A stretch of DNA of 47,305 nt, taken from positions 1 to 47,305 of the IMG/VR virus record IMGVR_UViG_3300044798_000503; one strand, written 5' to 3'. Positions 4,370 to 45,843 of this stretch are shown here, piece after piece (position 1 is the first letter of the stretch; each line of letters begins with the position of its first letter). Below the pieces are notes generated by a model. The model had not been told where the DNA came from, did no database searches, and worked only from the letters and a program-made list of their open reading frames with translations. The position numbers and the translations under genes are program-made. This DNA is from a virus.

Positions 4370-4386
4370 GACATGGACTCCTGGTC

Positions 4387-4458
4387 ATCTGATAGCTGAT
4401 AGCTGATAGCTGATGGCTGATGGCTGATAGCTGAAAGCTGATAGCTGATAGCTGATCA
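4387..4458. repeat. Heptamer array (TGATAGC)n
   Basis: About nine tandem units of GATAGCT/GATGGCT on the plus strand, running into the stop codon of the next upstream gene (4456). It occupies the whole spacer apart from the SD of the 141-aa gene. Confidence 0.9.
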
Positions 4459-4935
4459 AAACTCTTCCCACTCGAGCGACACATTTACGAGCGTCGCCAC
4501 GGCCGAACCGGGCGCGGCCTCGAGGCAGAGCGTCTGGTTCGGGCCCCAGACCGGGGCCTCGTCGGGCGTCCATTCCTGGAGGAACGTCGCCCGGGCGTTC
4601 ACCGAGCCGCCGCCGACCGACGCGGCCTCGAAGGTCGTCGGCTCGACGGTGTACTGGCTGCCCAGGGCGGAGACCTTGCTGGCGATGCTGCCGGGGTCGG
4701 CCTGGGCGATCGCGGTGATCGAGTTGGTCGCCGTCCCGTCGCCCGTGTTGCCGGTCCGCCGGAGGCGGAATGAGACCTGCACGTCCTGCGGCGCGCCGCC
4801 CCCGCCGCCGATCACGAGTCGGCGGAGCCGGGCGCGGTGCCCGGCCGTGTTGGCAAATTTCAGGCCCACCAGGCTGATGTGGGCGTTGGCGGTCGCGCCG
4901 GTCGATAGGCCGGCCAGTTTGGCTTTGTAGTGCAT
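4456..4935 (-). CDS. Tail-region structural protein, unknown (159 aa)
   Basis: An intact frame starting at 4935 with SD CTGGAG 7 nt upstream. The same leader, CTGGAGTTCCCC, precedes the gene at 25922-26329. The product is an all-beta, Gly/Thr-rich protein (LVIGGGGGAPQDV, SFRLRRTGNTGD, EPTTFEAASVGG) of the kind that forms virion surface or tail-collar proteins. No catalytic motif, membrane segment or Cys cluster is visible. It sits in a run of similar-sized genes between the tape measure and the LamG-like protein, so a minor tail role is inferred. Confidence 0.75.
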   Translation of the reverse strand: MHYKAKLAGLSTGATANAHISLVGLKFANTAGHRARLRRLVIGGGGGAPQDVQVSFRLRRTGNTGDGTATNSITAIAQADPGSIASKVSALGSQYTVEPTTFEAASVGGGSVNARATFLQEWTPDEAPVWGPNQTLCLEAAPGSAVATLVNVSLEWEEF

Positions 4936-10289: not shown

Positions 10290-10501
10290 GGTATTGGTCC
10301 TGTTGGTCCTGTCGGTCCTGAGTTTTGAGGGACTCACAGTACGGGTTCCTCTTCTCTGTTCGCGCCGAAACAGAGAAGAGGAATCCGTACTTACTTGGGT
10401 ACGGTCATGGTATCGGTCCTGTCGGTCCTGAGTTTTGAGGGACTCACAGTACGGGTTCCTCTTCTCTGTTCGCGCCGAAACAGAGAAGAGGAACCCGTAC
10501 T
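10286..10501. repeat. Tandem duplication (about 115 bp) containing two family B hairpins
   Basis: Two copies of a segment: CATGGTATYGGTCCTG, 9-bp GGTCCTGTC repeats, GAGTTTTGAGGGACTCAC, then a GTACGGGTTCCTCTTCTC hairpin. One hairpin spans 10338-10391 (one mismatch, GAATCC), the other 10448-10501 (perfect). The upstream copy still carries a CATGG matching the gene's start codon. Confidence 0.9.
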
Positions 10502-10505
10502 TGCC

Positions 10506-15100: not shown

Positions 15101-15107
15101 TGAAAGC

Positions 15108-15186
15108 CCTCAGCTATCAGCTATCAGCTATCAGCTATCAGCGGAGGCCGTCCGGCTGCTAGCTGATAGCTGACTGCTGATAGCTA
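15108..15186. repeat. Inverted pair of heptamer arrays
   Basis: Four TCAGCTA units, a GGAGGCCGTCCGGC centre that is itself palindromic, then TAGCTGA-type units. A long hairpin is possible; it fills the spacer. Confidence 0.9.
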
Positions 15187-19964: not shown

Positions 19965-20564
19965 GAGAAAGTCAGTCTGCCGAAAAACGGCGGCCAGTCG
20001 GAAGAGAACACGCCCCGGATTCGCCGGATGCGGAAGGGGGCGGAAGAGGGGAGACGATGAGAATACGGGTTCCTCTTCTCTGTTCGCGCCGGAATAGAGA
20101 AGAGGAACCCGTATTCTCCCGCATGGGGGTAGTTTGCGCGCAGAATACCCCCAGGGCAGCAGAATACCCCCAGGCAATGCCGGAAGTGATGGACGCTTAA
20201 GGGGTTAGGACGTTCGCAACGGCATGTCAGATAGTCGCGTGCTCATGCCGGCCATTCTTGCACGCGACACACTTGCCGTGTTGTCGCCGGTCGTTCGCCG
20301 GTCGCGCGACCGGCGAAGAAACCCCGGAAACCACGGGAAATTCCACTATGGGAATTTTTTCGCCGGTCGTTCGCCGGTCGCTTGGCCGGTCGCTTTCCGC
20401 ATGGCTTCAACCACGGGCATAATCGCCGAGAGTTGGTAAAGATAGCGCGGTTCCCGCGGTTTCGGAAGAGAAGAAATGACCGGATGTACCCCTTAAGATA
20501 CCCCCGGGCGCCGCATCAATTGTCGGGGAAAATCAGGTCCACACCCTTTCCCGGAAATTTGCGC
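19965..20564 (-). other. Gene-free leader between portal and protease, with nested inverted repeats
   Basis: Six hundred bases without a convincing gene. It contains a family B hairpin (20061-20116), two ATACCCCCAGG copies (about 20143-20172), CTTAAGGGGT (from 20199) matched by ACCCCTTAAG (about 20490), a perfect 24-bp palindrome at 20294-20317, a repeat of CGCCGGTCGTTCGCCGGTCG at about 20285 and 20350, and a GGGAAATTCC/GGGAATTTT imperfect repeat. It may be a structured mRNA leader, a small RNA or the remains of an insertion. Confidence 0.6.
20061..20116. repeat. Family B hairpin (AATACGGG variant)
   Basis: A near-perfect hairpin with GAATACGGGTTCCTCTTCTC and its complement ending GTATTC. 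Compared with other copies both ends change together (AATAC/GTATT), a compensatory difference. Loop GTTCGCGCCGGAATAG. Confidence 0.93.
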
Positions 20565-22103
20565 CTAGTTTTGGCCGCTGTTATCGAGTCGAATGTTCAC
20601 TCCGTCCGGCGTCGGCAGACAAGCCAACTCCCTCCAGGTGATGTTCAGACCCGCATGGGCCGCGTTGAGTTCCTCCGCTTTGGCCAGAGCGATCTCGATC
20701 AGTTGCGCGTTGTCGTCGACGATCTCTTTGGCGATCACGGCGCCTTCGTAGCCCCGCTCGGCGGCCCAGCGACGGCGACTCACCAGGCCGTTGCGGAGCC
20801 GCAACAGATCCGCCGTCGCGTCCTGCACCGGTTGAATGTACGGCCAGGAGGGCGCGTTCCAACGGCAGGCGAAATACGCCGTGCCCATCCGTTCCATCGC
20901 CGCGGCCAGGGCCGGGTCCTCGGCCGCGTAACGGCGGACCTGCCAGGCATAGGCCGGCTGACAGAGCGAGAAACGGAGCCGACGCTGGTTGTGGCGAAAA
21001 CCGAGCCGGGCCTGGTCGATGGCGCCCCGCCAGCCGCTGAAGTTCGTCTCGCTCGCGTCCATCAGAACCATCACCAGCGGCATCCCGAGGTTCAGGCCGA
21101 TGAACTGGAGCATCAGTCGGATGTGCGGGAAGTACTCGGGGTTCGGCACGCGCGGGCTGTCCATGCGGAGCTTTTCGCCGGGCAACCCGTTGATCTGCAT
21201 CCCCGGGCCGAGGCCTTCGAGCGTCTTGACGAACCCACCGGAGGTCTCCTCCGTCGTGCGCGGGCCGAGTTGGCCGGTCCCGTCGCCCATGCTGAACGCG
21301 AGTTCACGCTCCCGGAAAATGGCGAAACAGGCCACCATCTGCCGCTGCACAAGCGTGGCGAAATTGATGTCGTCGACCATCCCACAGACATCGAAGATCG
21401 GCGCGAGCGCGGTGACGCCGCGCGTCTGCGAGATCCGCTTCGATACCAGCGCGTGAAACACCTGCCGATTGCCGTCCGCGTCGCGGGTCGGATACTTTCG
21501 GATGTCGCCGACCTTCGCCACGGAGGCGAAGCCGACATCGTCTTTGGTCAGCCAGTATTCCAACCGCTTCCGCGTCGAGGGATCGAGCAGGATGCCGTGG
21601 ACCACGTTTTGCGTCGTGTTGCTCGGAGTCCGGCAGCGGTGCGCCTCGACCATCTCCAGCGCGCCCGATTCGTTTGCCAGCGCGATCACGTCGCCATCAA
21701 CGAAGCAGTGTCGCAGGGCGAGCCATTGCTGCTCCCAAAACGTCCGCTCGCCGGCCAGGTCGCATTGGTCGGCATCTTCGGCCCATTCCTTGAAACGCGA
21801 TTTCAACTCGGCGTTCACGCCCGGGTCGGGCGTCTGCGGATCGTGGCGGAGCCCGTCCTGAATCGTGTTGGTGACCGCCCGGTCGATCGTCTGGCCGACA
21901 ACCATGTCGGAGCGGTCCATGTCCCTCGCGTACTCCATCATCCGGAAGTAGTCGGCCGGCGAGCGGTAGTGCCAGTCGGCGCCGCCGCCCATGGGCTGAA
22001 GGCCGGTCCGGACTCGGCGGAATCGGTTTTGCTTCGCGGCGGAATAGTCGGACCGCATCGCGGCGAAATTGGCGGCCAGGTTGGGGACGGTGTCGCGCGG
22101 CAT
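20565..22103 (-). CDS. Phage portal protein, lambda (gpB) type (512 aa)
   Basis: Forms the dodecameric vertex for DNA packaging. Lambda-portal features: MRSDYSAAKQNRFRR near the N-terminus, a central strand region with DVGFASVAKVGDIRKYPTRD, and the block QTRGVTALAPIFDVCGMVDD, typical of this family (R-G-v-s-x-l-a-p). The C-terminal part includes FSGWRGAIDQARLGFRHNQR. Length is near the lambda portal (533 aa). No leading SD (CATGGGAGGG on the plus strand). The next upstream gene, 99 aa, ends 33 nt before. Confidence 0.9.
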   Translation of the reverse strand: MPRDTVPNLAANFAAMRSDYSAAKQNRFRRVRTGLQPMGGGADWHYRSPADYFRMMEYARDMDRSDMVVGQTIDRAVTNTIQDGLRHDPQTPDPGVNAELKSRFKEWAEDADQCDLAGERTFWEQQWLALRHCFVDGDVIALANESGALEMVEAHRCRTPSNTTQNVVHGILLDPSTRKRLEYWLTKDDVGFASVAKVGDIRKYPTRDADGNRQVFHALVSKRISQTRGVTALAPIFDVCGMVDDINFATLVQRQMVACFAIFRERELAFSMGDGTGQLGPRTTEETSGGFVKTLEGLGPGMQINGLPGEKLRMDSPRVPNPEYFPHIRLMLQFIGLNLGMPLVMVLMDASETNFSGWRGAIDQARLGFRHNQRRLRFSLCQPAYAWQVRRYAAEDPALAAAMERMGTAYFACRWNAPSWPYIQPVQDATADLLRLRNGLVSRRRWAAERGYEGAVIAKEIVDDNAQLIEIALAKAEELNAAHAGLNITWRELACLPTPDGVNIRLDNSGQN

Positions 22104-22136: not shown

Positions 22137-22436
22137 TCAACTTCGGAAATCGCGGAAATCGACGTAGGTCGCACGCGCGGCGGCAAGCGCGGAGCCGAAC
22201 ACGGCCAACCACTTTTTGGCCTCGATCATTTCCGCGGAGATCAGCGTCAGGTCGAGTTCGATTTCCTCGCCGCCACGGCCGCCGTGGACGGCACGCTTCG
22301 GTAAATTCAACAGGAGCAGCCGGCAGGCCGTGATGAAGCCGCGGGCCTTCGCCGGCGAACTATCCTCCTCATAGGAGGCGTTGTCCGCGTAGGCGGCACG
22401 GATTTCGGCGAGGGTGCTGGCGGAGGTGAGCGGCAT
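22137..22436 (-). CDS. Small head-module protein upstream of the portal, unknown (99 aa)
   Basis: Helical, with TLAEIRAAYADNASYEED at the N-terminus and AKARGFITACRLLLLNLPKR. The C-terminus ends AEMIEAKKWLAVFGSALAAA. Short proteins of this outline (STLAEIrAAYaDNasYEe) lie between terminase and portal in several lambda-like phages, comparable to lambda gpW, though I cannot prove homology. Start at 22436 follows CCCCTCC with no clear SD; a heptamer array precedes. Confidence 0.68.
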   Translation of the reverse strand: MPLTSASTLAEIRAAYADNASYEEDSSPAKARGFITACRLLLLNLPKRAVHGGRGGEEIELDLTLISAEMIEAKKWLAVFGSALAAARATYVDFRDFRS

Positions 22437-22821: not shown

Positions 22822-22847
22822 ATAGTCGTTGACTAGTCAACGACTAT
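22822..22847. promoter_or_regulatory. 26-bp perfect palindrome, likely operator
   Basis: A perfect inverted repeat with half-site ATAGTCGTTGACT and no gap. The -35 hexamer lies within it, so a bound dimer would block RNA polymerase. No second copy was noticed elsewhere in the window. Confidence 0.8.
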
Positions 22848-22856
22848 CCGTATAAT
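22829..22856 (+). promoter_or_regulatory. Strong sigma-70-type promoter for the plus-strand operon
   Basis: TTGACT (22829-22834) and TATAAT (22851-22856) with a 16-bp spacer; it lies inside and just beyond the 26-bp palindrome. Expected start about 22863, giving an 80-nt leader to the ATG at 22945. Confidence 0.8.
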
Positions 22857-22944
22857 AGGAGTAGATGAGACAACTGCGGCCGACCGGCAGTTCACAGGTC
22901 GGGGCCGTCCGCCGGCCGACAGGCGGAAACGAAAGGTCCGAAAA

Positions 22945-23790
22945 ATGTCGCTACTGCAAACCAATCCGACCCGCGAAGCCCTCCTCTGCTCGATCGCCCG
23001 CGCGAATTCCAATGCCAATCCGTCGCGCGCCAGGACCCGCCTGTGCTCGCTGCCCAACTCGATCGCCGCCGAGATCCTCTCCTCGCCCGAGGGTGTGGAG
23101 GAAGAGGACGGGGGCGCCGTGGCGAACAGCTACAAGTACGGCTGTGAGACCAGTTACGTGATCGCGGCATGGTGGACCGATGGCGCCGGTCGCCGGCACG
23201 TCCGGATCGACGGCCGCCGGACCGACTGCCGGCACGCGTCACATGGCAACGGCAACGGCACGAGCCGCGCCGGCCGCGCGGGAGCGTGGACTGCCGTGTT
23301 CCCGGAGCGCGCCACGAAATTGGCGCAGGCCCACCGCGCCCGCTGCCGCGCCGCGATCGCCCGCCTCGGGATTGATCCCGGCGAGGTGTGGCACGCCGAA
23401 TTCCAGCGGCTGGAACGCGAGATGTGGACCGCCCGGCAGTCCGGCGGCGTCGCTAGCCCCGAGTATATCGCCGTCGAGTCCGCCCTGGCGGCCCACCGCG
23501 CCGCGCAGCCCACCGACACCGCGCGCACCATTTCGGGCGCGGTCCTACTGGCCGCCTCGCCCGAGGGTCTGCTGATCGGTGATCGCCGCGAGCGACCCAC
23601 CACCGTGCAGCTCGTGGTCACCGACTCGACGACCGGCCATCGCCACCAGATCACCGTCCCGCCGAAATTCGGGCGGCCCGAGTCGAAAACCTGGCAACGG
23701 CTCGGCAACGACGCGGCCCGCGTTCATGCCGCGCTGGCCTGGACATTCGCGCTCGAGCCGGCGCAATATGCGCCGCAGGTGACCGCCTGA
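22945..23790 (+). CDS. Accessory protein, first gene of the plus-strand operon, unknown (281 aa)
   Basis: Encoded opposite to almost all other genes. ATG at 22945 with GAAAGGTCCG about 8 nt upstream. The protein has a Cys-containing N-terminal half (CSIARANSNANPSRAR, YKYGCETSYVIAAWW, GRRTDCRHASHGNGNG) and a helical middle segment (LAQAHRARCRAAIARLGI) rich in Arg and Ala. The C-terminus is beta-like (TVQLVVTDSTTGHRHQITVP). There is no membrane segment or known catalytic motif. Function not recognised. It is co-transcribed with 23911-24638 and probably with 24747-25223. Confidence 0.75.
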   Translation: MSLLQTNPTREALLCSIARANSNANPSRARTRLCSLPNSIAAEILSSPEGVEEEDGGAVANSYKYGCETSYVIAAWWTDGAGRRHVRIDGRRTDCRHASHGNGNGTSRAGRAGAWTAVFPERATKLAQAHRARCRAAIARLGIDPGEVWHAEFQRLEREMWTARQSGGVASPEYIAVESALAAHRAAQPTDTARTISGAVLLAASPEGLLIGDRRERPTTVQLVVTDSTTGHRHQITVPPKFGRPESKTWQRLGNDAARVHAALAWTFALEPAQYAPQVTA

Positions 23791-23910
23791 TCCCCGCTGA
23801 CGAGCCTGCCGGCGGGCAGGCGAAACGCCCCGCAGGGGGCGTCCGGGACGCGACTTCCGACGACCCGCAGCGTGCCGGCGCTGGGAGCCGGCGAGACAGG
23901 AGATTGTCTG

Positions 23911-24231
23911 ATGTCTACGATTTCGCAAATCCGCCAGGGCGACGTGCTGCTGACGCTTGTCGCCGAGCCAAAAAAGCCCGTCCGCGCCTGCGACCAGAGC
24001 GGCCAGCCCCTGGCCGGGCTGGTCGTCGAGGGCGAGCGGACTGGGCACGCCCACCGGCTACCGGCGCGGGTCTATGACCTCCCGGGCGGGAGGCGCGTGC
24101 TGATGGTCGAGCGACCGACGTCGCTGACTCACCAGGAGCACCGGCACATCGAGGTGCCGGCCGGCTGGTGGGAGGTCACCGTCCAGCGCGAATATGTCCC
24201 GGCCGAGCGACCCATGCGCAGGAGGGACTGA
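23911..24231 (+). CDS. Small conserved-looking protein with GHAH and QREY motifs (106 aa)
   Basis: The start at ATG 23911 has SD AGGAG 8 nt upstream. Motifs in order: IRQGDVLLTLV (about 6-16), GERTGHAHRLPARVYDL (about 40-56) and THQEHRHIEVPAGWWEV, ending VTVQREYVPAE. A short beta-barrel with paired His motifs is plausible. I have seen this R-Q-G-D-V-L-L ... G-H-A-H ... Q-R-E-Y pattern as a family of unknown function in bacterial accessory islands (from memory, not checked). It overlaps nothing and lies 2 nt before the next gene, so the two are probably coupled. Confidence 0.72.
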   Translation: MSTISQIRQGDVLLTLVAEPKKPVRACDQSGQPLAGLVVEGERTGHAHRLPARVYDLPGGRRVLMVERPTSLTHQEHRHIEVPAGWWEVTVQREYVPAERPMRRRD

Positions 24232-24233
24232 TC

Positions 24234-24638
24234 ATGGAATCGACGACCTATCGCCTGCCCCGCACGGGACAGGCCCCGCTGATGTTCTCCGGCCAGATGC
24301 TGGCCGAAAACGATGGAAGCCATCAGGCCGGCCGCGAGCAAAACCGGTGGCACGCACTGGCCCTCTATCGCGCCGATAGCGGCCGGTACGTCGCCGCCAT
24401 CCGATACCACACCCGATGGCAGGGCGAGATCGAGCATGACGAGGCGCGGATTTGCGACTCGCCCGCCGAGGCCGCGGAGATTTTTCGTCTCTACGACCCG
24501 GCTGTCCACGTGCAGGGCTACCCGCCCGGCGTGGCCTACGAGGAGCGTCAGGCCCGCCTGATCTCGGACCTCGTGCGGCGCTATCAGTCCCAGGTGAGCG
24601 AGATCCTCGACAGGGATGAGTTCGCCGAAAATGTGTGA
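24234..24638 (+). CDS. Accessory protein, unknown (134 aa)
   Basis: Starts at ATG 24234 with an excellent SD (AGGAGG) and only a 2-nt gap from the previous stop. Sequence: STTYRLPRTGQAPLMFSGQM, then a Trp/Tyr/His block (RWHALALYRADSGRYVAAIR), YHTRWQGEIEHDEARICD, and a helical C-terminus (ARLISDLVRRYQSQVSEIL). Soluble, no membrane segment or catalytic motif recognised. It seems designed to work with its coupled partner. A longer frame beginning at 24168 is rejected because it overlaps the previous gene without an SD. Confidence 0.75.
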   Translation: MESTTYRLPRTGQAPLMFSGQMLAENDGSHQAGREQNRWHALALYRADSGRYVAAIRYHTRWQGEIEHDEARICDSPAEAAEIFRLYDPAVHVQGYPPGVAYEERQARLISDLVRRYQSQVSEILDRDEFAENV

Positions 24639-24746
24639 CACGGAGACCAACTCGCCCGAGGGCCGCGCGGCGGCCCTCGGGCTGCTTTACGGCGGCACAC
24701 GGAGTGTGCCGGATACAGATCCTAATCCCTAATACCTGGAGAAATC

Positions 24747-25223
24747 ATGGCACCCAAAAACAAGCAATTCTCGATCTACCCCGAGCCGACGGCGCTGGCC
24801 GTGGTCGGCGGCAACTGCGCAGGCTGCAACCGCGCGATCGGCTGCTGGGCGGCGACGCTGCAACAGCCGGAAAACGAGCCGAAATTGACCCGGCCCGAGT
24901 GGAACTTTTTGGCCGACGTGCTCAACGGCACGTGGCTCCTCGATGCCGATCACTGGGGACCCGGCACCCTGGCGGCCGAAATCGAGGACGCCCACCGGCT
25001 GAACCGGACCGGCGACAAATGGTTCCGGCCGGGCAAGGTCGCCGATAAGGCGATTGCCAAATTGATCGCCGCGGTCCGTGCGATGACCTGGATACAGATC
25101 CAGTTCATCTTGACCGCCGTGTCGTTTTTCTGGTCGGCAAAAGAAATTGACCACACGACCGACGAGTGGTGGACGCTGCCCTACCGCGTCGAGCGGCTCG
25201 GCCGCGGAGAGGTGGAGGATTAG
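24747..25223 (+). CDS. Accessory protein, unknown (158 aa)
   Basis: ATG 24747 with SD CTGGAG 6 nt upstream. After a Cys-containing segment (NCAGCNRAIGC, about 23-33) comes a Trp-rich helical region: TRPEWNFLADVLNGTWLLD, TLAAEIEDAHRLNRTGDKW, and a C-terminal helix with FFWSAKEIDH. Last gene of the plus-strand run before a convergent 45-aa gene, with stops overlapping by 4 bp. Small proteins with this 'EWnfLaDvLNGT' pattern occur in accessory operons of diverse bacteria, but I assign no function. Confidence 0.7.
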   Translation: MAPKNKQFSIYPEPTALAVVGGNCAGCNRAIGCWAATLQQPENEPKLTRPEWNFLADVLNGTWLLDADHWGPGTLAAEIEDAHRLNRTGDKWFRPGKVADKAIAKLIAAVRAMTWIQIQFILTAVSFFWSAKEIDHTTDEWWTLPYRVERLGRGEVED

Positions 25224-25357
25224 AACCCCGCGCAGCCGCCCCGGCCGAGCCAGGTCAATAGGACCGCTCCCACCGCGATCGCCAGCAGGATCGCCAGGTC
25301 GCGGGGCGATGATAGGTCGGGCCAGTCGGGCCAGTCGGGACCGTTGGGATCGTCCAT
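25220..25357 (-). CDS. Tiny membrane protein, convergent with the plus operon (45 aa)
   Basis: A 45-aa frame with an N-terminal acidic Trp/Pro/Asp stretch (DDPNGPDWPDWPDL), then a clear membrane helix LAILLAIAVGAVLLTWL, ending GRGGCAGF. The ATG is at 25357, and TATACT ends six bases before it, so the mRNA may be leaderless; no -35 is convincing. The TAA overlaps the TAG of the plus-strand gene by 3-4 bases. Real or not is uncertain, but the clean hydrophobic segment argues for it. Confidence 0.5.
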   Translation of the reverse strand: MDDPNGPDWPDWPDLSSPRDLAILLAIAVGAVLLTWLGRGGCAGF

Positions 25358-25386
25358 GCGAGAAGTATAGCACCCAAAAACGCAGT

Positions 25387-25416
25387 ACGAAGGTACGGAG
25401 GTACGGAGGTACGGAA
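25387..25416. repeat. (GGTACGGA)n tandem repeat supplying the SD
   Basis: Three to four units of GGTACGGA/GGTACGAA in front of the 77-aa gene; the junctions read GGAGG, a good ribosome-binding site. Similar GTACGGGG units recur near 25,655. Confidence 0.8.
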
Positions 25417-25417
25417 A

Positions 25418-25651
25418 ATGGACGATGTTCCCCGAACGTGCATTTTGTGCCGGCACATGTGGTTCGATTCCGGCGAGGACGTGCAATCGCCGGACACTCC
25501 GGGGACCGAATGGTCCTCATCCTGCAATTTGCACCATTGGGAAATGTCCGGCGATAGGGTCACGATGGAGATCTATCGCCGGAACCTGATGAGCGCCGAA
25601 ACCTGCCCGGACTTTGCGGAAGGGTCGTCGGCACCGATTTACAGCGAGTAG
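25418..25651 (+). CDS. Small Cys-rich protein, plus strand (77 aa)
   Basis: MDDVPRTCILCRHMWFD opens with a C-x-x-C, followed by CNLHHWEMSG and ETCPDFAEG, giving four Cys plus two His: a probable zinc-binding miniprotein. SD GGAGG comes from an (GGTACGGA)n tandem repeat placed immediately upstream (25390-25415). No known family. Reads in the direction of the accessory operon and could be its last gene, though 195 bp separate them. Confidence 0.65.
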   Translation: MDDVPRTCILCRHMWFDSGEDVQSPDTPGTEWSSSCNLHHWEMSGDRVTMEIYRRNLMSAETCPDFAEGSSAPIYSE

Positions 25652-25925: not shown

Positions 25926-26329
25926 CGCTCGCTCCCGGCAAGCCGGCGAGATGCCTGCTCTACTTTTTCGAGCAGCCAGCGGATGGCGTCCGCGTGGCTG
26001 GTAGTTCGACGGCCGTTCTCCAGCCGGGCGCCCGAGGCGTCCAGGCCCAGGAAGAGCCGGCGGACCGCCACGCACTGGCCGACCGTCTGGAGCGGCACGT
26101 CAATGTGGCGCGATAAATAGTACCGGCCGCCCCGGACCTCGGCCATCGGCACGTCGCCCAGCGGCAGGTCGGTGAGGCTGATCGTCGCCGGAGCGGCCGC
26201 AAGCGGCGGCGACGGCGGGGCGGCCTGGTCGGTCACGGCGACCGGCGACTCTTCACCGATCGGCGGAGGGAGGAAACTTTCGGGCGCGGCGGAAACGTCC
26301 GAGTAACGGGGGGCGCGTTGGCGGGGCAT
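25922..26329 (-). CDS. Small protein, Pro/Ala-rich N-terminus, unknown (135 aa)
   Basis: Residues 1-50 are low-complexity (PESFLPPPIGEESPVAVTDQ). The C-terminal half is a folded-looking helical region: PMAEVRGGRYYLSRHIDVPL, QTVGQCVAVRRLFLGLDASG, ADAIRWLLEKVE. ATG 26329 with SD CTGGAG, in the leader CTGGAGTTCCCC shared with the gene at 4456. Upstream of the zinc-ribbon gene and downstream of the methylase. The name is left open. Confidence 0.7.
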   Translation of the reverse strand: MPRQRAPRYSDVSAAPESFLPPPIGEESPVAVTDQAAPPSPPLAAAPATISLTDLPLGDVPMAEVRGGRYYLSRHIDVPLQTVGQCVAVRRLFLGLDASGARLENGRRTTSHADAIRWLLEKVEQASRRLAGSER

Positions 26330-26339
26330 GGGGAACTCC

Positions 26340-26419
26340 AGGGTACGGGGGACGGGGGACGGGGAACGGGGGACGGGGGACGGGGGTCAGGGGTCAGGGG
26401 TCAGGGGTCGGGGGTCAGG
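26340..26419. repeat. (GGGGACG / GGGGTCA)n array
   Basis: About eleven units in the gap between the small gene's SD and the methylase's stop; GACGGGG units precede TCAGGGG units. Confidence 0.88.
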
Positions 26420-27782
26420 TCTTCGCGGCATAGGCGATCCGGCGGCGGGCGATCCGGCAGTACTCGGGGTCTTCCTCGATGCCGAGGAAACGGAAACCTT
26501 CCAACACGGCGGCCTTGCCCGTCGAGCCGCTGCCGCAAAACGGGTCGAGGACCAGACCGCCGGGCGGCGTCACCAAGCGGCAGAGGTAACGCATCAGCGG
26601 CGTCGATTTCACGGTGGGATGGTGGTTGCGGGCGTATGGTCGAGTGTGAGAGCCGCGTCCGTTGGCATTTTCCTCGCCAAGAGTTTGCCCAGCCCGCTGG
26701 ACGCTGGTGTTATAGATCGATTCTGGCATCCCGTCGCACCCCTCTTCCCGATCGCGGCGGGTGGCCTTCGCGCAGTAGAAGAAACGGGCAGCGGAGCCGT
26801 TGCTTGGTGGTTGCCCGTCTGTTGTCACACGTGCATAGTTTTTGCCACTCATACAAACGTTCGGACATTCTGATCGCGCACCGTTTCCACCTCCGCTTGT
26901 AGTCACCGGGAACACTTCCAGCACCTCTTCGCTGCCGTCGTGGATCAGGTGGGCGGGGAATCGGCCGAGGCGCTCGCCGGCATGGCCGTTGACGTATTGC
27001 TCCAGGTCCCTTTGGAACGGCGGCAGGCCGCGTTTCACGCGGTTCGCGCTGTGCATGTCCGGTGCGACCTTGCCGTTCTTGGCCGCGCTTTCGCGGCGGT
27101 CGATGCTGGGATTCGGACCCGGCACCCGGCAGGCGTCGATGTTCAATCCGCCGGTCCCCCACCGGAGCACGTTGGCTGCGACGCTTTTTTCCGAGAGCGG
27201 TTTGCGCAGGAGCCACCAGTCTTCGACAGCCGGCTTCAACGCCGTCCCAAAACCCGACCACGCGGCGGCGGCGGGGGTAAGCGGACGTGAGTCGAGGACC
27301 GTTCCCTTGTTGGCCTTCGACCAGGCGTCCTGTGCGTAGGTTGCGCTCACGACGCCGCTGCGAATATCCCGGATGCGTTTCCGCTTCGCCCCCTTCAGCT
27401 TGTCGATCGCCTTCCCCACGTCCAGCGATTTCGGAAACCCCGATCCGAAGATGTGCGAGATCCGGTCCCTGATCTTGAATCCCGCATCCTCCCAGGCCGT
27501 GGCCGTCCAGTGCGAAGTGCGCGGCAGACTCCACACCAGCGCATGGCCGCCCGGCTTCAAGACCCGCAGGCACTCGGCCGCAACCTCGGTCATCCAGGCG
27601 ACCCACGGCGCACGGCCGCCGCGATCACGGTCCCAGGTTTTTCCCATGAACGCGATCCCGGCCGGCGGGTCGGTCACGACCGAGTCGACGCTGGAGTCGG
27701 CGAGCGTCTTCAAGACGGCCAGACAGTCGCCTCGCCGGACAGAAACATGATCGACAGAAACAGGGCGGCGCTTTGTTTTCAT
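26415..27782 (-). CDS. DNA methyltransferase, N4-C/N6-A class beta (455 aa)
   Basis: Start ATG 27782 (MKTKRRPVSVDHVSVRRG); sequence further upstream is translated heptamer. Motif IV comes first: VVTDPPAGIAFMGKTWD at about 36-52, with the Tyr of DPPY replaced by Ala, a known variant in phage methylases. The SAM-binding motif is near the C-terminus: LVLDPFCGSGSTGKAAV, about 415-431, followed by FLGIEEDPEYCRIARRR. The order IV then I is class beta. It lies next after terminase, an unusual place for a modification enzyme; it may modify the phage genome against host restriction. Target sequence unknown. Confidence 0.88.
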   Translation of the reverse strand: MKTKRRPVSVDHVSVRRGDCLAVLKTLADSSVDSVVTDPPAGIAFMGKTWDRDRGGRAPWVAWMTEVAAECLRVLKPGGHALVWSLPRTSHWTATAWEDAGFKIRDRISHIFGSGFPKSLDVGKAIDKLKGAKRKRIRDIRSGVVSATYAQDAWSKANKGTVLDSRPLTPAAAAWSGFGTALKPAVEDWWLLRKPLSEKSVAANVLRWGTGGLNIDACRVPGPNPSIDRRESAAKNGKVAPDMHSANRVKRGLPPFQRDLEQYVNGHAGERLGRFPAHLIHDGSEEVLEVFPVTTSGGGNGARSECPNVCMSGKNYARVTTDGQPPSNGSAARFFYCAKATRRDREEGCDGMPESIYNTSVQRAGQTLGEENANGRGSHTRPYARNHHPTVKSTPLMRYLCRLVTPPGGLVLDPFCGSGSTGKAAVLEGFRFLGIEEDPEYCRIARRRIAYAAKT

Positions 27783-27785
27783 CGG

Positions 27786-27818
27786 ACGGCTGATAGCTGA
27801 TAGCTGACGGCTGATAGC
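27786..27818. repeat. Heptamer array (GCTGATA)n
   Basis: About four units between the methylase start and terminase stop. Confidence 0.85.
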
Positions 27819-27819
27819 T

Positions 27820-29886
27820 TCACCTCTCACTGACCAAAAACGGCCGACCGTCCGGCATCACGATCGGACTCGGGGAGTCGTCGGAAGGAGAAGAGGAAAG
27901 AGGCAGGATGCCTCTTCTACTCTGAATCAAACGCACGCCGGCCAGGTGCCCCGCCCAACAGGCGTTGTATGTCGCGTCGAGATAGTGGTTGGCCTTTCTG
28001 GCGCGCTCCCAAATCACCTTCTCGCCGACACCTTCGATGAAGATCTCGCGGGGCCGCTCCGCCGTGATGTGTTGCGACCAGGTGATATGCTGGTTCGGAT
28101 CGCGGGACTGGTAGAGCTCGAAGGCGCCCGGCTCGCCGGCGGGCGTCCGGAGCCGGTCGTGAAGCCATGTCTTCCAAAAGTCCGCGCATACGTCGGCGCG
28201 GAAGAGCCGCTCGGTCGGCATCCAGGAAATGTAGTACTCCTGGCCGATCGCACGGACCGCCGCGCCGAGCTTGGTAGGGTGCGTATAGGTCCGATAGCGC
28301 CGGTCATAGGCCGAGAGTCCCCGGCCGAGCGCCGGGATGTAACGCCGGCCGGCCTGGCGGCAAAACTCGTACACCGCCTCCGGCATGTACCCCGCGTCGA
28401 TCGACACGGGGTTCGGTATGAGAAGTTCGCCCCCCGGCTTCCGCCAACCCGGCTCGATCACCTGCTCGCGGAGGTCGGACAAGGCGGCCAGGACCGCCCG
28501 GGCTATGTCCATCGTATCGCCGGCGATGTCGAACCGGCCGTAATCGACCAGGTGGCCGCGGGCGTCAGGTCGCCAGGCGACCAGCACCCAGTGGCCGAGC
28601 CGCTTTCCCAGGTCGATCCCCATCGTGAGCCGCTCCGCGTCCTGGGGCACCACGCCGCAGGTGAGCGACTCGGCGGCGACCCGCTTGCGGATGACGTGCG
28701 GATCGAGCGGGCTGGTGTCTAAAAGCGGCGGCTGCCAGGGCATGACCCAGACGAACTGAAACATCTCCCGTTCCGCCGCGTCGTAGTCGGGGGCAACGCG
28801 GGCGGACCATTCTCGGGCGCCCAGCTCGCCGGCAGTCCAAAATAGGTTGTGAAAGGCCGTCCAACGAATCGAAAGCGTGTCCACGTCGGGCGGGTCGCCG
28901 ACGGCGCGGCCGCGGGCGTTGACCGTCTGGCCGCGATGGACTACCACCGCGCGGGTCACCATCCGTCGGCGCTCCGCGGCGGTGATTGCGACGCCGCAGG
29001 CGGGGCAGGCGAAGTGGGCCAGCCGGCGGGCGACCTCCTTCGACGCCGCCTGCTGCCAACCAAGCAGGTGCTCTCGCTCGGGCAGCACGTACTTGCGGCA
29101 GTGGGGGCACGGGCAGAGCAACTGGCTTCCGGTACCGGCCAGGAACTCGGTCCAGATCCGGCCGTGCGGGACCGAGACGGTACATTCGAGATAGATCCGC
29201 CGCTCGTCGGCAGGGTAGCGGCCGGTCCGGTTCTCAATCTGGCGGACCGGATCGGCCTCGCGCGAGAGCGCGGAGGCAGTGTCCATCTTGTCCACCTCCG
29301 TGAGCAGCACCACCCGGGCCGTATAGCTCGAGCGGTTCTCGTCGCCGCCGCCGGCGCTCATGAATTTCAACCGCGCGCCGTTGCCGAAGAGAAGCTCTTC
29401 GGCGAAGCCACCTTCGCTGCCGGCGCCGCGCCGAGGCAGGAACACGCGGTAACGCGAGGCGGCGATGACCGGCAGGACCTCTCCCATGAACTTGTCGCGG
29501 CAGATTTTGATCGTCGGGGCGGCGAGGATCACCGACTCGCGATGCTCGAAGAGCCAGAAGAGAGACTCGGCGCCGAGGCCGAGAAACGACTTGCCGGATT
29601 GCACGCAACCGACGAGGGCTTTGCGCGGCCAGCGATCGTCGTCCAGCGCCGCGAGGACCGGCACATTGAACGGCTGCACGTCGGGCCGCCAACGCGAACC
29701 GCGCGAGGGTCCCTTCGGGATCACCACCTCCTCGGCGACAAACTCGGCCAGGCTGCGGATGCGCGGCGTCCGAGAGCCGCGAAGCAGACCGCGCAACTCC
29801 GCGCGGCACGCTTCACCCAGCCGCACTTGGCTCGATACCGGTAGGACCATCAGCAGAAGCCAGGCGATCCAATTCACGTTGGGCAT
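27820..29886 (-). CDS. Terminase large subunit, GpA-like (688 aa)
   Basis: Packaging ATPase and nuclease. Walker A GCVQSGKS (93-100), Walker B VVLLTEVD (192-199), preceded by EELLFGNGARLKFMSAGG. A zinc-ribbon segment (LLCPCPHCRKYVLPE ... FACPACGVAITAA) lies at about 255-295, typical of GpA-type terminases. The nuclease-domain Asp (TMGIDLGKRLGHWVLVAW) is near 420. The first about 12 residues are hydrophobic and may be wrongly included; ATG 29850 is an alternative start. The C-terminal RRGILPLSSS is a translated family A arm (27898-27920). It overlaps the small subunit by 74 bp. Confidence 0.9.
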   Translation of the reverse strand: MPNVNWIAWLLLMVLPVSSQVRLGEACRAELRGLLRGSRTPRIRSLAEFVAEEVVIPKGPSRGSRWRPDVQPFNVPVLAALDDDRWPRKALVGCVQSGKSFLGLGAESLFWLFEHRESVILAAPTIKICRDKFMGEVLPVIAASRYRVFLPRRGAGSEGGFAEELLFGNGARLKFMSAGGGDENRSSYTARVVLLTEVDKMDTASALSREADPVRQIENRTGRYPADERRIYLECTVSVPHGRIWTEFLAGTGSQLLCPCPHCRKYVLPEREHLLGWQQAASKEVARRLAHFACPACGVAITAAERRRMVTRAVVVHRGQTVNARGRAVGDPPDVDTLSIRWTAFHNLFWTAGELGAREWSARVAPDYDAAEREMFQFVWVMPWQPPLLDTSPLDPHVIRKRVAAESLTCGVVPQDAERLTMGIDLGKRLGHWVLVAWRPDARGHLVDYGRFDIAGDTMDIARAVLAALSDLREQVIEPGWRKPGGELLIPNPVSIDAGYMPEAVYEFCRQAGRRYIPALGRGLSAYDRRYRTYTHPTKLGAAVRAIGQEYYISWMPTERLFRADVCADFWKTWLHDRLRTPAGEPGAFELYQSRDPNQHITWSQHITAERPREIFIEGVGEKVIWERARKANHYLDATYNACWAGHLAGVRLIQSRRGILPLSSSPSDDSPSPIVMPDGRPFLVSER
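27898..27920. repeat. Single family A arm inside the terminase 3' end
   Basis: AAGAGGCAGGATGCCTCTTC read on the minus strand near the C-terminus of terminase. Confidence 0.85.
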
Positions 29887-34693: not shown

Positions 34694-35572
34694 TTATTGG
34701 AAAACGGGAAATTCTCGACAGCCACGCAAATCCTCCGGCCATTCGTCCGGCCAGTTTCCGGTCTTCATGCGCAGGCGCCATCGCCCGTTTGCGTGGCGCG
34801 AGACCTTCGTTTCGCTCACGAACCGGCCGGCGACAAGGTGACTGAGTGTGTAGGTCGGCACGTTTGGCGCGAGCCAATCGCCGTGCAGATTCTGCCCAAG
34901 CTGTTTGATGAAAAACGGGACGCGCTTTTTTCGGGTATCAGCGGCCAACCGGCGGAACCAGGCCAGATCGCAGGGCCTCGCCCCGACGCCGGTTTCTCCG
35001 CCGGCGATGATCCAATCGACCCAGTTCAATGAAACAGGACCGGTGGCCGGAATGAGATCAATAGGCCCGAGCAGCGGCTCGATCGAGAGAAACCGTCTCG
35101 GCGCCGGGGTCGCCATCAATGCCGGTAAATGGGCCTTGAGGTCGAAGTTCGACGATACCGAACAGCCGGCCCAAATATGCCCGGCGCACGGCCCGTCGAG
35201 TGCGCGCCATTGTTCGCTCATTCGTTCCGTCCTCTTGGTGAGCACCACGTAGGTATGGCGTGGCGCCGCGTGCATCACGTCGAAAATCCGCGTCCGCATC
35301 TCAAATGTCACCTCGTCGTGAAACAGATCGCCCATCGAGCAGACGAAAATCCGGGCCGGCTTGCGCCAATGCAGCGGTTCTTCCAACCGGTCCGTGTGGA
35401 AGGTCACACGAAAGGGGTCCTCGGCGTCGTATCCGAACCGCCCGCGCAGCCGTGGGCTTTCGGCCGCCCGCTTGGCGTAGCAATGCGCGCAGCCCAGGCC
35501 GATCGGAGTACAGCCGGTGATCGGATTCCACACCTTGTCGGCCCATTGGATCTTCGTGTCGGCCATGGTCAT
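34694..35572 (-). CDS. DUF5131 family protein (phage Gp37/Gp68-like), paralogue 1 (292 aa)
   Basis: N-terminal signature IQWADKVWNPITGC, then C-T-P-I-G-L-G-C-A-H-C-Y: Cys21, Cys28 and Cys31 form the C-x6-C-x2-C cluster of the Gp37/Gp68 family. Further family blocks: IFVCSMGDLFHDEV, VVLTKRTERM, and WIIAGGETGVGARPC. Family members are sometimes called radical-SAM-like; the chemistry is not established here. Start ATG 35572 overlaps the Dam stop by ATGA. A second, diverged copy lies at 36605. Confidence 0.88.
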   Translation of the reverse strand: MTMADTKIQWADKVWNPITGCTPIGLGCAHCYAKRAAESPRLRGRFGYDAEDPFRVTFHTDRLEEPLHWRKPARIFVCSMGDLFHDEVTFEMRTRIFDVMHAAPRHTYVVLTKRTERMSEQWRALDGPCAGHIWAGCSVSSNFDLKAHLPALMATPAPRRFLSIEPLLGPIDLIPATGPVSLNWVDWIIAGGETGVGARPCDLAWFRRLAADTRKKRVPFFIKQLGQNLHGDWLAPNVPTYTLSHLVAGRFVSETKVSRHANGRWRLRMKTGNWPDEWPEDLRGCREFPVFQ

Positions 35573-36555: not shown

Positions 36556-36608
36556 GTGGAAGCGGCATCTTGCCGCTTGTTATGGACGCGGCAGGATGCC
36601 GCGTCTAC
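36556..36608. repeat. Family A element, hetero-armed
   Basis: GTGGAAGCGGCATCTTGCCG, loop, then GGCAGGATGCCGCGTCTAC; spans the gap between the DUF5131 gene's stop and the Dam start. The TAG stop of DUF5131 lies inside it. Confidence 0.92.
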
Positions 36609-37360
36609 TTCAACTCAAAAGGGACCTGGCGAATCCCCAGGTATTTTTCCCACAACGGGTCCGCGGACGGTCGCGGAGAATTCGATCCGGCCTGTTTGAC
36701 GAAGAGCGGGGTACCCGAAACAAAGCAGCGTTCCGCAATCGGCCGGACCCAATCGGAATAACACGGCCTTGCCCCTGGACCCGTCTCGCCGCCAACGATG
36801 ATCCAATTGATGGACCATACCGGAAAATCGACCGGACCGATTAGGGGTTCCGCCGAGACGAACCGGCTCGGCGCTCGGGTACGGTGGAGAAACGGGATCC
36901 GTTGGTCCGCCTGAAACTGATCTTCAACCGAAACGCCCGCCCAAATGTGCGCGGCGCAAGGTCCGTTCCAATTCACGATGCCCCGTCCCATCCGATCGAG
37001 GTCCCGCCATTCCCCGGCCATTCGCTCAGCGCGTTTCGTGAGCACCAAAAACCGATGTCGCGTGGCTGACATCATCGTAGACCAGACCTTCGCCCGAAAA
37101 TCGAACGGAATGTCTTCGTGAAACAGGTCGCCCATCGAGCAGACAAAAATGGCCTTCGGTTTTCTCCATCGCAGTGGATCGGCCATGCGATCGAAATGGT
37201 AGGTGATGCGAAATGGATCCATGGCGTCATACTGGCATCGCCCGGCCAGCCGCCTGGCCATCCGCATGGCGTAGCAGTTCGCGCAGCCCGGCGAGACCCG
37301 GGTGCATCCGGTCACCGGGTTCCACACCTTGTCGGCCCACTCGATTTTCGTGTCGCCCAT
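36605..37360 (-). CDS. DUF5131 family protein (phage Gp37/Gp68-like), paralogue 2 (251 aa)
   Basis: N-terminus MGDTKIEWADKVWNPVTGC, then C-x6-C-x2-C (Cys19, Cys26, Cys29), the same signature as the neighbour at 34694; also IFVCSMGDLFHEDI, LVLTKRAERMAGEW, INWIIVGGETGPGARPC. Clearly homologous to the other copy but with many differences, so an old duplication or two independent gains. It flanks the Dam gene on the other side. SD absent; the leader is a heptamer array. Confidence 0.88.
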   Translation of the reverse strand: MGDTKIEWADKVWNPVTGCTRVSPGCANCYAMRMARRLAGRCQYDAMDPFRITYHFDRMADPLRWRKPKAIFVCSMGDLFHEDIPFDFRAKVWSTMMSATRHRFLVLTKRAERMAGEWRDLDRMGRGIVNWNGPCAAHIWAGVSVEDQFQADQRIPFLHRTRAPSRFVSAEPLIGPVDFPVWSINWIIVGGETGPGARPCYSDWVRPIAERCFVSGTPLFVKQAGSNSPRPSADPLWEKYLGIRQVPFELK

Positions 37361-40541: not shown

Positions 40542-40813
40542 CGGTTCACTCCTATTTCGCTCCTCAACCTAAAAATCCATTCCTTCCGGAGGTCCGGATC
40601 AAAGCACACGTCGATGTCGGCGAGGAGCAACCCGGTTTTCGCCCTCGCCAAATGGTAGATAAGGTCGCGACTTTTGGGCCCCGGAAAAATTGCCGATATA
40701 GACCACCAAATCCACGGCCGGCGGCGACAGTGAACCCGGATGCGGCGGACTATCCTCGCGGCGTCCCGCTCCGTTAGGGTCGCACGGTATCTGGCCGACG
40801 GTAACTGTTTCAT
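40538..40813 (-). CDS. Small protein, unknown (91 aa)
   Basis: MKQLPSARYRATLTERDAAR begins a basic helix; then WIWWSISAIFPGPKSRDLIY and a C-terminal ADIDVCFDPDLRKEW. SD AGGAGG directly before ATG 40813, with the SD bordering a family B hairpin. First gene of the coupled three-gene cluster downstream of integrase. No family recognised. Confidence 0.7.
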   Translation of the reverse strand: MKQLPSARYRATLTERDAARIVRRIRVHCRRRPWIWWSISAIFPGPKSRDLIYHLARAKTGLLLADIDVCFDPDLRKEWIFRLRSEIGVNR

Positions 40814-40824
40814 GGTCCCCTCCT

Positions 40825-40878
40825 AGTACGGGTTCCTCTTCTCTGTTCGCGCCTGAACAGAGAAGAGGAACCCGTATT
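40825..40878. repeat. Family B hairpin
   Basis: AGTACGGGTTCCTCTTCTC, loop TGTTCGCGCCTGAACA, complement ending CCCGTATT (the terminal pair is not matched). It lies in the gap between the integrase stop and the 91-aa gene's SD. Confidence 0.92.
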
Positions 40879-40911
40879 CCCCCGGTGCCGTGGTGATGGC
40901 CCCGTTTTCTG

Positions 40912-44616: not shown

Positions 44617-44686
44617 TTCCTGCGTGGTAGGGCCCATTTGTTCAGCATTGCGGCGGGGCGGCCCGCGCGGGAAGATTCATCCGCCG

Positions 44687-44757
44687 CGGCACCGAGGCAG
44701 TACGGGTTCCTCTTCTCTGTTCAGGCGCGAACAGAGAAGAGGAACCCGTACTGCCCC
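44687..44757. repeat. Family B hairpin with extended flank, left copy
   Basis: Core 44698-44753 is CAGTACGGGTTCCTCTTC with complement; the flanks (GCGGCACCGAGG, CCCC) also match the copy at 45773-45843. Loop TTCAGGCGCGAA is the reverse complement of the loop at 40825. Confidence 0.93.
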
Positions 44758-44800: not shown

Positions 44801-45757
44801 ATGCATTCACCCTGGTCCTGTCCGGTCCCCGATCCGCCGCCGAAGGCTCGCGAGTCCATCCCTGAAATGCCGGTCCGGCCTCTTTTGGAACGCACGGCCC
44901 TGGACCTCTTCATCGAACGCTGGGCCTCGAAATTGATCCGTCTTCCGGGGACCTGGTGGACCGCCGCGGTCCTCGCGTTCCTCGGATTTCTACTGACGGC
45001 CCGAAGCGAACCCGGGTCGGCCGTGGTCTGGAATTACCTCCTGCTGGTCGGCGGCTCTATCTGCCTGGCCGCCGCGATTTCCTTCCATTGGTTCGCCGGC
45101 CGGTTCCGGTGGCGTTTGGCCGGCGCGCTGACGGTCTGCGCCGTCTCGGTTTACGCGCCATTCGACGGCTACGAAAATTGCTGGACGAAGTTCGATGGTT
45201 CGGAAAAAGAGATCGAAGGCCGACCGAAAGACCGAAAGGGAGCGCGCACCGAATATCGGGATTCCTATTGGCGACGTGGAAGAACGCCGTACTATCGCTA
45301 TTGCAACAGCTACGACAAGCACGAATGTTCCATCACCATGCAAGGCCCGATGGCCGGACAGACCAAGCCCCACGGCGAATGGACAACGATCCTCTGGAAA
45401 GACGATGTTCGCCAGACGCGCAACTGGCGTTGGTACGGCGAGACGATCAGCGAGGGCGAATGGCACCTGCGGAGCGCGCGGGCCGGATCGGCCGCCTCGG
45501 GTTTTCTGCTTGCCCTGCTGGCCTTCGCGCTAGGTTGCGCTTGCTATCCGCTCTATCGGTTGGCAGGCCGGATCGGCCGGGCCTCCGGGAGTACTTCAAC
45601 GCCGGAAACGGCGGCGGTCGATCGAGAAAACCCGGCCGCGCCGATCGGCGGGACTTGCCCTCGATGCCGCGCCTCGGTCGTTATGGGAGAACTCCACTGC
45701 CGCCGCTGCCAGCAGCCCCTGGCCTGGACCCCGCCCGGGCCGGTCAGCTTGCGGTGA
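44801..45757 (+). CDS. Membrane protein with C-terminal zinc ribbon, cargo gene (318 aa)
   Basis: ATG 44801 chosen (GAGG 8 nt upstream). Two membrane segments near 45-95 (TWWTAAVLAFLGFLLTA, NYLLLVGGSICLAAAISF), then a third (LAGALTVCAVSVYAPF); a soluble loop with several Cys/Tyr (SYWRRGRTPYYRYCNSYDKH), another membrane segment ASGFLLALLAFALGCACY, and C-terminal zinc ribbon CPRCRASVVMGELHCRRCQQ. No known family. A plus-strand gene flanked by near-identical family B hairpins, so it may be a mobile or transferred cassette. Superinfection exclusion is one idea. Confidence 0.72.
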   Translation: MHSPWSCPVPDPPPKARESIPEMPVRPLLERTALDLFIERWASKLIRLPGTWWTAAVLAFLGFLLTARSEPGSAVVWNYLLLVGGSICLAAAISFHWFAGRFRWRLAGALTVCAVSVYAPFDGYENCWTKFDGSEKEIEGRPKDRKGARTEYRDSYWRRGRTPYYRYCNSYDKHECSITMQGPMAGQTKPHGEWTTILWKDDVRQTRNWRWYGETISEGEWHLRSARAGSAASGFLLALLAFALGCACYPLYRLAGRIGRASGSTSTPETAAVDRENPAAPIGGTCPRCRASVVMGELHCRRCQQPLAWTPPGPVSLR

Positions 45758-45772
45758 GAGAATCAGGGATCG

Positions 45773-45843
45773 GCGGCACCGCGGCAGTACGGGTTCCTCT
45801 TCTCTGTTCAGGCGCGGACAGAGAAGAGGAACCCGTACTGCCC
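45773..45843. repeat. Family B hairpin with extended flank, right copy
   Basis: Core 45785-45840, with the flank GCGGCACCGCGG before and CCCC after, nearly identical to the copy at 44687. Loop base G replaces A (GCGCGGACAG against GCGCGAACAG). Confidence 0.93.

Follow-up and report, generated by a model that had tools for sequence, protein, structure and literature searches.

Why should a short run of genes be read from the plus strand in the middle of a head-gene region that is otherwise encoded on the minus strand? The question is raised by a 47,305-bp IMG/VR virus record (IMGVR_UViG_3300044798_000503; the whole stretch is hereafter the window), in which five plus-strand genes, termed A to E, lie between the terminase and portal genes, behind a promoter that overlaps a perfect palindrome. 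We propose, giving it about an even chance, that genes A to D form an autorepressed, moron-like establishment or anti-defence operon, the product of gene D resembling a dual anti-CRISPR (Acr) and anti-CRISPR-associated (Aca) protein. The features on which this proposal is built are the following, where aa stands for amino acids and L numbers denote loci with which the window was compared.

22822 to 22847, no strand assigned: 26-bp perfect palindrome, a probable operator, single copy with 0 mismatches, with counterparts in L006 and L097.
22829 to 22856, plus strand: sigma-70-like promoter TTGACT-16-TATAAT, its -35 hexamer within the palindrome, matching 11/12 consensus bases.
22945 to 23790, plus strand: gene A, 281 aa, in the place of DUF6745, its C-terminal ~50 aa homologous to the DUF6745 tail by hhalign; relatives in L005, L006, L095/L096 and L097.
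23911 to 24231, plus strand: gene B, 106 aa, a GHxH...HEEH...QREY protein and DUF6745 partner with four invariant histidines, predicted to be all-beta (phrog_27831, E=9e-7).
24234 to 24638, plus strand: gene C, 134 aa, an (R/Y)HTxWQGE protein that is fused to D in L005 and, from its homologues, has plasmid relatives.
24747 to 25223, plus strand: gene D, 158 aa, assigned from profile, hhalign and model to the AcrIE10 family, with a putative ribbon-helix-helix-like N-terminus and a helical Acr-type domain.

The promoter comprises a -35 hexamer, TTGACT, at 22829-22834 and a -10 hexamer, TATAAT, at 22851-22856, separated by a 16-nt spacer. It is the best promoter-like site, and the sole 11/12 match, within 20-31 kb of the window, and its position suggests that it drives genes A to D. 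A sequence-only reading of the window had drawn attention to the palindrome overlapping its TTGACT hexamer, and the repeat (ATAGTCGTTGACTAGTCAACGACTAT) is indeed perfect over 26 bp. It occurs once in the window, even when 3 mismatches are allowed, where 0.00 occurrences are expected by chance. Perfect AT-rich inverted repeats of that size, counted with arms of at least 11 and a spacer of no more than 3, were found 3 times in 739 kb of viral loci, or ~0.0015 per 380 bp. An exact search of IMG/VR returned no other copy of the palindrome core, and a shared operator was rejected for want of a second copy.

The product of gene D may link this promoter to CRISPR inhibition. Structure prediction and remote homology searches, which the sequence-only reading had recommended, led to AcrIE10, a protein that fills the Cas7e groove and thereby blocks assembly of type I-E Cascade (PMC13131331). 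When compared with the PDB, a profile of five D sequences matched AcrIE10 structures only (E=0.14). After enlargement with seven phage homologues, which were found using D alone and left the profile with phage sequences only, a comparison with all PDB chains recovered AcrIE10 with an E-value of 2.9e-5, while the next unrelated chain scored 0.7. Using hhalign, the D profile was aligned with AcrIE10 over 94 columns with 94% probability, against no more than 1.6% for reversed and 60 shuffled AcrIE10 controls and no more than 1% for 15 neighbouring plasmid proteins. Furthermore, when the AlphaFold model of D from the window (predicted local distance difference test, pLDDT: 83) was submitted to VIA-align, the best PDB chain was 9m7t_A, an AcrIE10-DNA complex (Z: 8.0; root-mean-square deviation: 3.1; 91/115 residues), with the next chain at Z 4.3. 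Profile and model together indicate that D is a remote AcrIE10-family protein, with moderate strength for a shared fold. Anti-defence, one of the functions suggested from the sequence, has gained real support from this family membership.

Comparable arrangements can be observed in other phages. In two further viral contigs, L005 and L006, genes related to A, B, C and D succeed one another as they do in the window: the arrangement is A-B-x-CD in the former, where C and D are fused in one 260-aa protein, and A-B-D in the latter; L097 is likewise A-B-D, while L095/L096 are A-B. The cassette is accompanied by integrase and repressor or helix-turn-helix (HTH) genes in L005 and L006, directly follows the integrase gene in L097 and neighbours terS/terL in L096. 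Because its position differs between phages, the A to D cassette behaves as a mobile 'moron' and not as a head gene. Palindromes of 25 bp (TCTATCTGATAGATTATCAGATAGA) and 24 bp (TAACAATATGTTAACATATTGTTA) are found in L006 and L097, respectively. These and the palindrome of the window have no common sequence, are alike in size, low GC content and a distance of 65-98 bp to gene A, and all overlap -35/-10-like hexamers. The independent control of the island that had been postulated is supported, because two other phages have, in the corresponding location, a promoter combined with a palindrome of entirely different sequence. No such palindrome was found upstream of A in L005, whose D follows C in a fusion protein and no longer has an N-terminus of its own, or in L096, from which D is absent. 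The latter A-B locus has a HicB/ribbon-helix-helix-like gene just upstream of A (L096:4784-4984), perhaps a replacement regulator.

The best-supported reading of these data, which are suggestive, is binding of the palindrome by D and repression of the operon that encodes it. The operon would be a self-contained unit, read from a promoter of its own and placed against the direction of the head operon, that would be activated upon entry of naked phage DNA into the cell or upon prophage induction, and would then be turned off by its own product. A dimer of D would bind the 26-bp palindrome via its N-terminal ribbon-helix-helix-like part, blocking RNA polymerase at the -35 hexamer, while the helical domain, as in AcrIE10, would bind a Cas7-type backbone subunit and so prevent a type I CRISPR effector from assembling. 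Inhibition of CRISPR by D is suggested by its sequence relationship. Genes A and B would be the phage counterpart of the DUF6745-B pair, with C as an accessory protein connected to D, and all three may act as further establishment or anti-host factors.

Known systems provide partial parallels. AcrIE10 of Klebsiella conjugative plasmids (PDB 8JI9, 9M7T) shares with D the profile homology over 94 columns, the helical fold over 91 residues and a VLNG...EIxD core, and is likewise found on mobile elements with its gene preceded by a short palindrome, which in Klebsiella plasmids measures 20 bp and lies 84 bp upstream of the gene pair. It differs in its length of 116 aa, as compared to 158 aa for D, in an identity of ~20%, and in that D forms part of a phage operon with A, B and C. 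AcrIF24, a dual Acr-Aca protein, binds its own promoter at an inverted repeat (PMC9638941). As in AcrIF24-type and other acr-aca operons, the inverted repeat in the window overlaps the promoter of an operon whose product is a candidate both for DNA binding and for CRISPR inhibition. AcrIF24, however, belongs to an unrelated family with an HTH body domain, while in the phage operon repression is predicted. The acrIE10 gene occurs on >2,400 plasmids, mostly of Klebsiella, downstream of ssb, parB, psiB and psiA. The plasmid leading-region anti-defence islands (PMC11541004) resemble the phage island in that AcrIE10 and a C-like gene are found on plasmids after ssb/parB/psiB/psiA and before oriT/tra or mob. 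The window, however, derives from a tailed phage, has a double-stranded-DNA promoter, and its island lacks anti-restriction and SOS-inhibitor genes. Since the C relative on an E. coli IncK plasmid is rare, C is not argued to be a leading-region hallmark.

Several observations weigh against the combined role of D as repressor and CRISPR inhibitor. D is a remote relative, ~20% identical to AcrIE10 and longer, and Foldseek returned no significant PDB match for the D model, AcrIE10 being recovered by VIA-align only. Residues 1-24 of the model are of low pLDDT, and in none of the D homologues does Pfam detect a ribbon-helix-helix domain. Of the other D loci, situated outside A-B operons, most have no palindrome, and the correlation between operator and D, which rests on five loci, is suggestive. 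Inhibition of CRISPR is deduced from homology. Known anti-CRISPR operons, in addition, usually lack A-, B- and C-like genes.

Part of this evidence would suit a protein that only regulates. D may be solely a transcriptional autoregulator in a family consisting mainly of mobile-element DNA-binding regulators, the Cas7e binding of AcrIE10 being an adaptation of the plasmid lineage and A-B (and C) a cargo unrelated to CRISPR. This is a credible alternative, to which we assign a probability well short of even. The promoter palindrome recurs where D has its own N-terminus, the closest structure, 9m7t_A, is a DNA complex, some D homologues are ribbon-helix-helix-like by sequence, and D family members also occur in phages devoid of A or B. 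The helical domain is, however, retained where the ribbon-helix-helix-like part is missing, in the D homologue of L111 (109 aa) and in the C-D fusion of L005, which suggests a role besides DNA binding, and the failure of Pfam to find this domain counts here as well.

The partnership of genes A and B extends well beyond these loci. A survey of the gene neighbourhood of B, the GHAH/QREY protein for which the sequence-only reading had recommended one, revealed that it is almost always located beside a gene for a DUF6745 protein (PF20530). Among the matches to the B family were 530 loci on bacterial genomes and 394 on viral contigs, and DUF6745 adjoins B in 76/80 genome loci and 45/83 viral loci. 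In 31 of the 38 viral B loci without DUF6745 the contig ends no more than 1.2 kb away from B, and nearly all of these have an open frame leaving the contig that corresponds to the first, repeat-rich part of a DUF6745 gene. The remaining seven consist of L154 and six A-type loci, and A therefore stands where DUF6745 stands elsewhere. A hidden Markov model of the A family, when compared with 22,817 open reading frames (ORFs), had as its matches outside the family proteins with a DUF6745 C-terminus, and hhalign aligned A with the DUF6745 profile over its last 51 columns with 96.9% probability, the shared tail being xxAVAWTFGLxxxxYxP. In the Pfam comparison A of the window gave no match to DUF6745 and A of L006 reached 16.5 bits against a cut-off of 27, and A is not called a DUF6745 member because it falls below this cut-off. 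The pair in the window thus resembles DUF6745 and its GHxH/QREY partner in that B is a clear phrog_27831 member and A, which adjoins it, has the C-terminal tail; it differs in that A, located upstream of B, has neither the remainder of the domain nor the tetrapeptide repeats found in DUF6745 proteins of viruses. Twelve residues are invariant in an alignment of 58 B sequences (R8, G10, D11, G41, E42, T44, G45, H46, H48, H74, H77 and G85), and look like a metal site. The B model (pLDDT: 88) is all-beta and found no significant PDB match with Foldseek and only Z 2-2.8 with VIA-align.

A and B could themselves be the core, a prophage-expressed factor for host takeover or for competition between phages (superinfection), with D and the palindrome representing incidental regulation, possibly by a CI-type repressor. 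The near-constant pairing of B with DUF6745, with most exceptions truncated by the contig end, and the replacement of DUF6745 by A in A-type loci favor this explanation, as does the proximity of the cassette to integrase or repressor genes in three relatives. DUF6745 and B, however, have no PDB homologues and no match in the defence library, and no mention of DUF6745 was found in the literature. Typical CI control uses multiple operators, while the palindrome is present only once in the window. We consider this explanation unlikely. Superinfection immunity and lysogeny control, both raised in the sequence-only reading, are supported by no homologue, though in 3/4 relatives the cassette lies close to an integrase or repressor gene.

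On the preferred reading of an autorepressed anti-defence operon, the system would be a known Acr/autorepressor-type operon in a new form, combined with a common and unstudied gene pair. A more far-reaching proposition, about which we are doubtful, is that an AcrIE10-type protein acts both as anti-CRISPR and as self-repressor through a fast-diverging palindromic operator and shares its operon with a DUF6745-like/B pair, which would in its own right be a very widespread and new anti-host or counter-defence module. If the preferred reading is correct, the AcrIE10 family would reach beyond enterobacterial plasmids into diverse uncultured phages, a testable Acr-plus-autorepressor design would be at hand, and the DUF6745/B pair would be placed in a counter-defence context in which its function is directly testable.

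The DUF6745-B pair of actinobacteria and Deinococcus is often located beside an STM4011-4015 cluster. For example, in L008, L011 and L012 (Streptomyces, Deinococcus) it adjoins the STM4011-STM4015 radical-SAM cluster, a lead to its cellular role. Viral DUF6745 proteins contain long tetrapeptide (12-nt) tandem repeats of the types SVWD, QVGA, NLRD, AATD and AVDG, as in L145:1683-3113, L170:4493-5980 and L104:4590-5969 among the viral B loci L098-L171. Approximately 30 IMG/VR contigs end exactly within such a repeat, which marks it as an assembly breakpoint that is probably hypervariable.

Two further features bear on the extent of the operon.

24654 to 24682, no strand assigned: GC-rich 13-bp inverted repeat (29-nt hairpin) between C and D, without a T-run.
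25418 to 25651, plus strand: gene E, 77 aa, a small Cys-rich, zinc-ribbon-like protein (sub-threshold Zn_ribbon_TFIIB match), uncertain as a member of the operon.

The island was correctly placed by the sequence-only reading, between terminase and portal and amid minus-strand genes. It is flanked on one side by two small genes (124 aa, 135 aa), a DNA methylase gene (26415-27830) and a gene for a GpA-type TerL (27820-29886), and on the other by a 99-aa gene (22137-22436), the portal gene (20565-22103) and an S49 peptidase gene. The terminase is only ~23% identical to those of cultured phages. Homologues exist for A to D, and these four genes are therefore real. The tight coupling of two genes with a strong Shine-Dalgarno sequence holds for B and C, which are separated by 2 nt, with AGGAGGG preceding C. 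The hairpin between C and D could be a possible transcription attenuator. All five genes had been thought to be driven by the promoter. A to D make a convincing unit; the five together are not established as such, since E, which may form a separate unit, is parted from D by 194 bp that contain GTACGGA heptad repeats and, on the minus strand, a small ORF (25220-25357, a predicted membrane peptide of 45 aa). Nor are the five proteins all unfamiliar, as had been stated: B is a member of a widespread family associated with DUF6745, relatives of C occur on plasmids, and D resembles AcrIE10. When A, C, D and E were compared as single proteins with Pfam, PHROGs, NCBIfam and PADLOC, none could be assigned a function.

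Placed between terminase and portal, the island might be taken to serve packaging, but that it is ordinary cargo, whether accessory genes for structure or packaging or host genes picked up by chance, without any coordinated function, is highly improbable given its opposite strand, its own promoter, the homologous cassettes elsewhere in other phages and the relatives of C and D on conjugative plasmids. Scans of profile libraries found no match of the island proteins to head, tail or packaging families, and a structural role was rejected on the absence of head/tail matches and the mobile position.

Additional features were observed elsewhere in the window. In the early region, two DUF5131 (PF07505) genes (34694-35572 and 36605-37360) flank a gene for a D12-class DNA methyltransferase. 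Intergenic repeats of 7-nt units (AGCTATC, GGGGTCA, GTACGGA), for example at 2121-2183, 4371-4467, 15103-15185 and 26326-26447, and GCGGCATCCTGCCGC elements are distributed across the phage in 15-25 copies per family. A conserved hairpin (GTACGGGTTCCTCTTCTCTGTTC and its complement), present in six copies with sites at 10305-10502, 20029-20116, 40792-40879, 44666-44753 and 45753-45840, is possibly a small mobile element or a processing signal.

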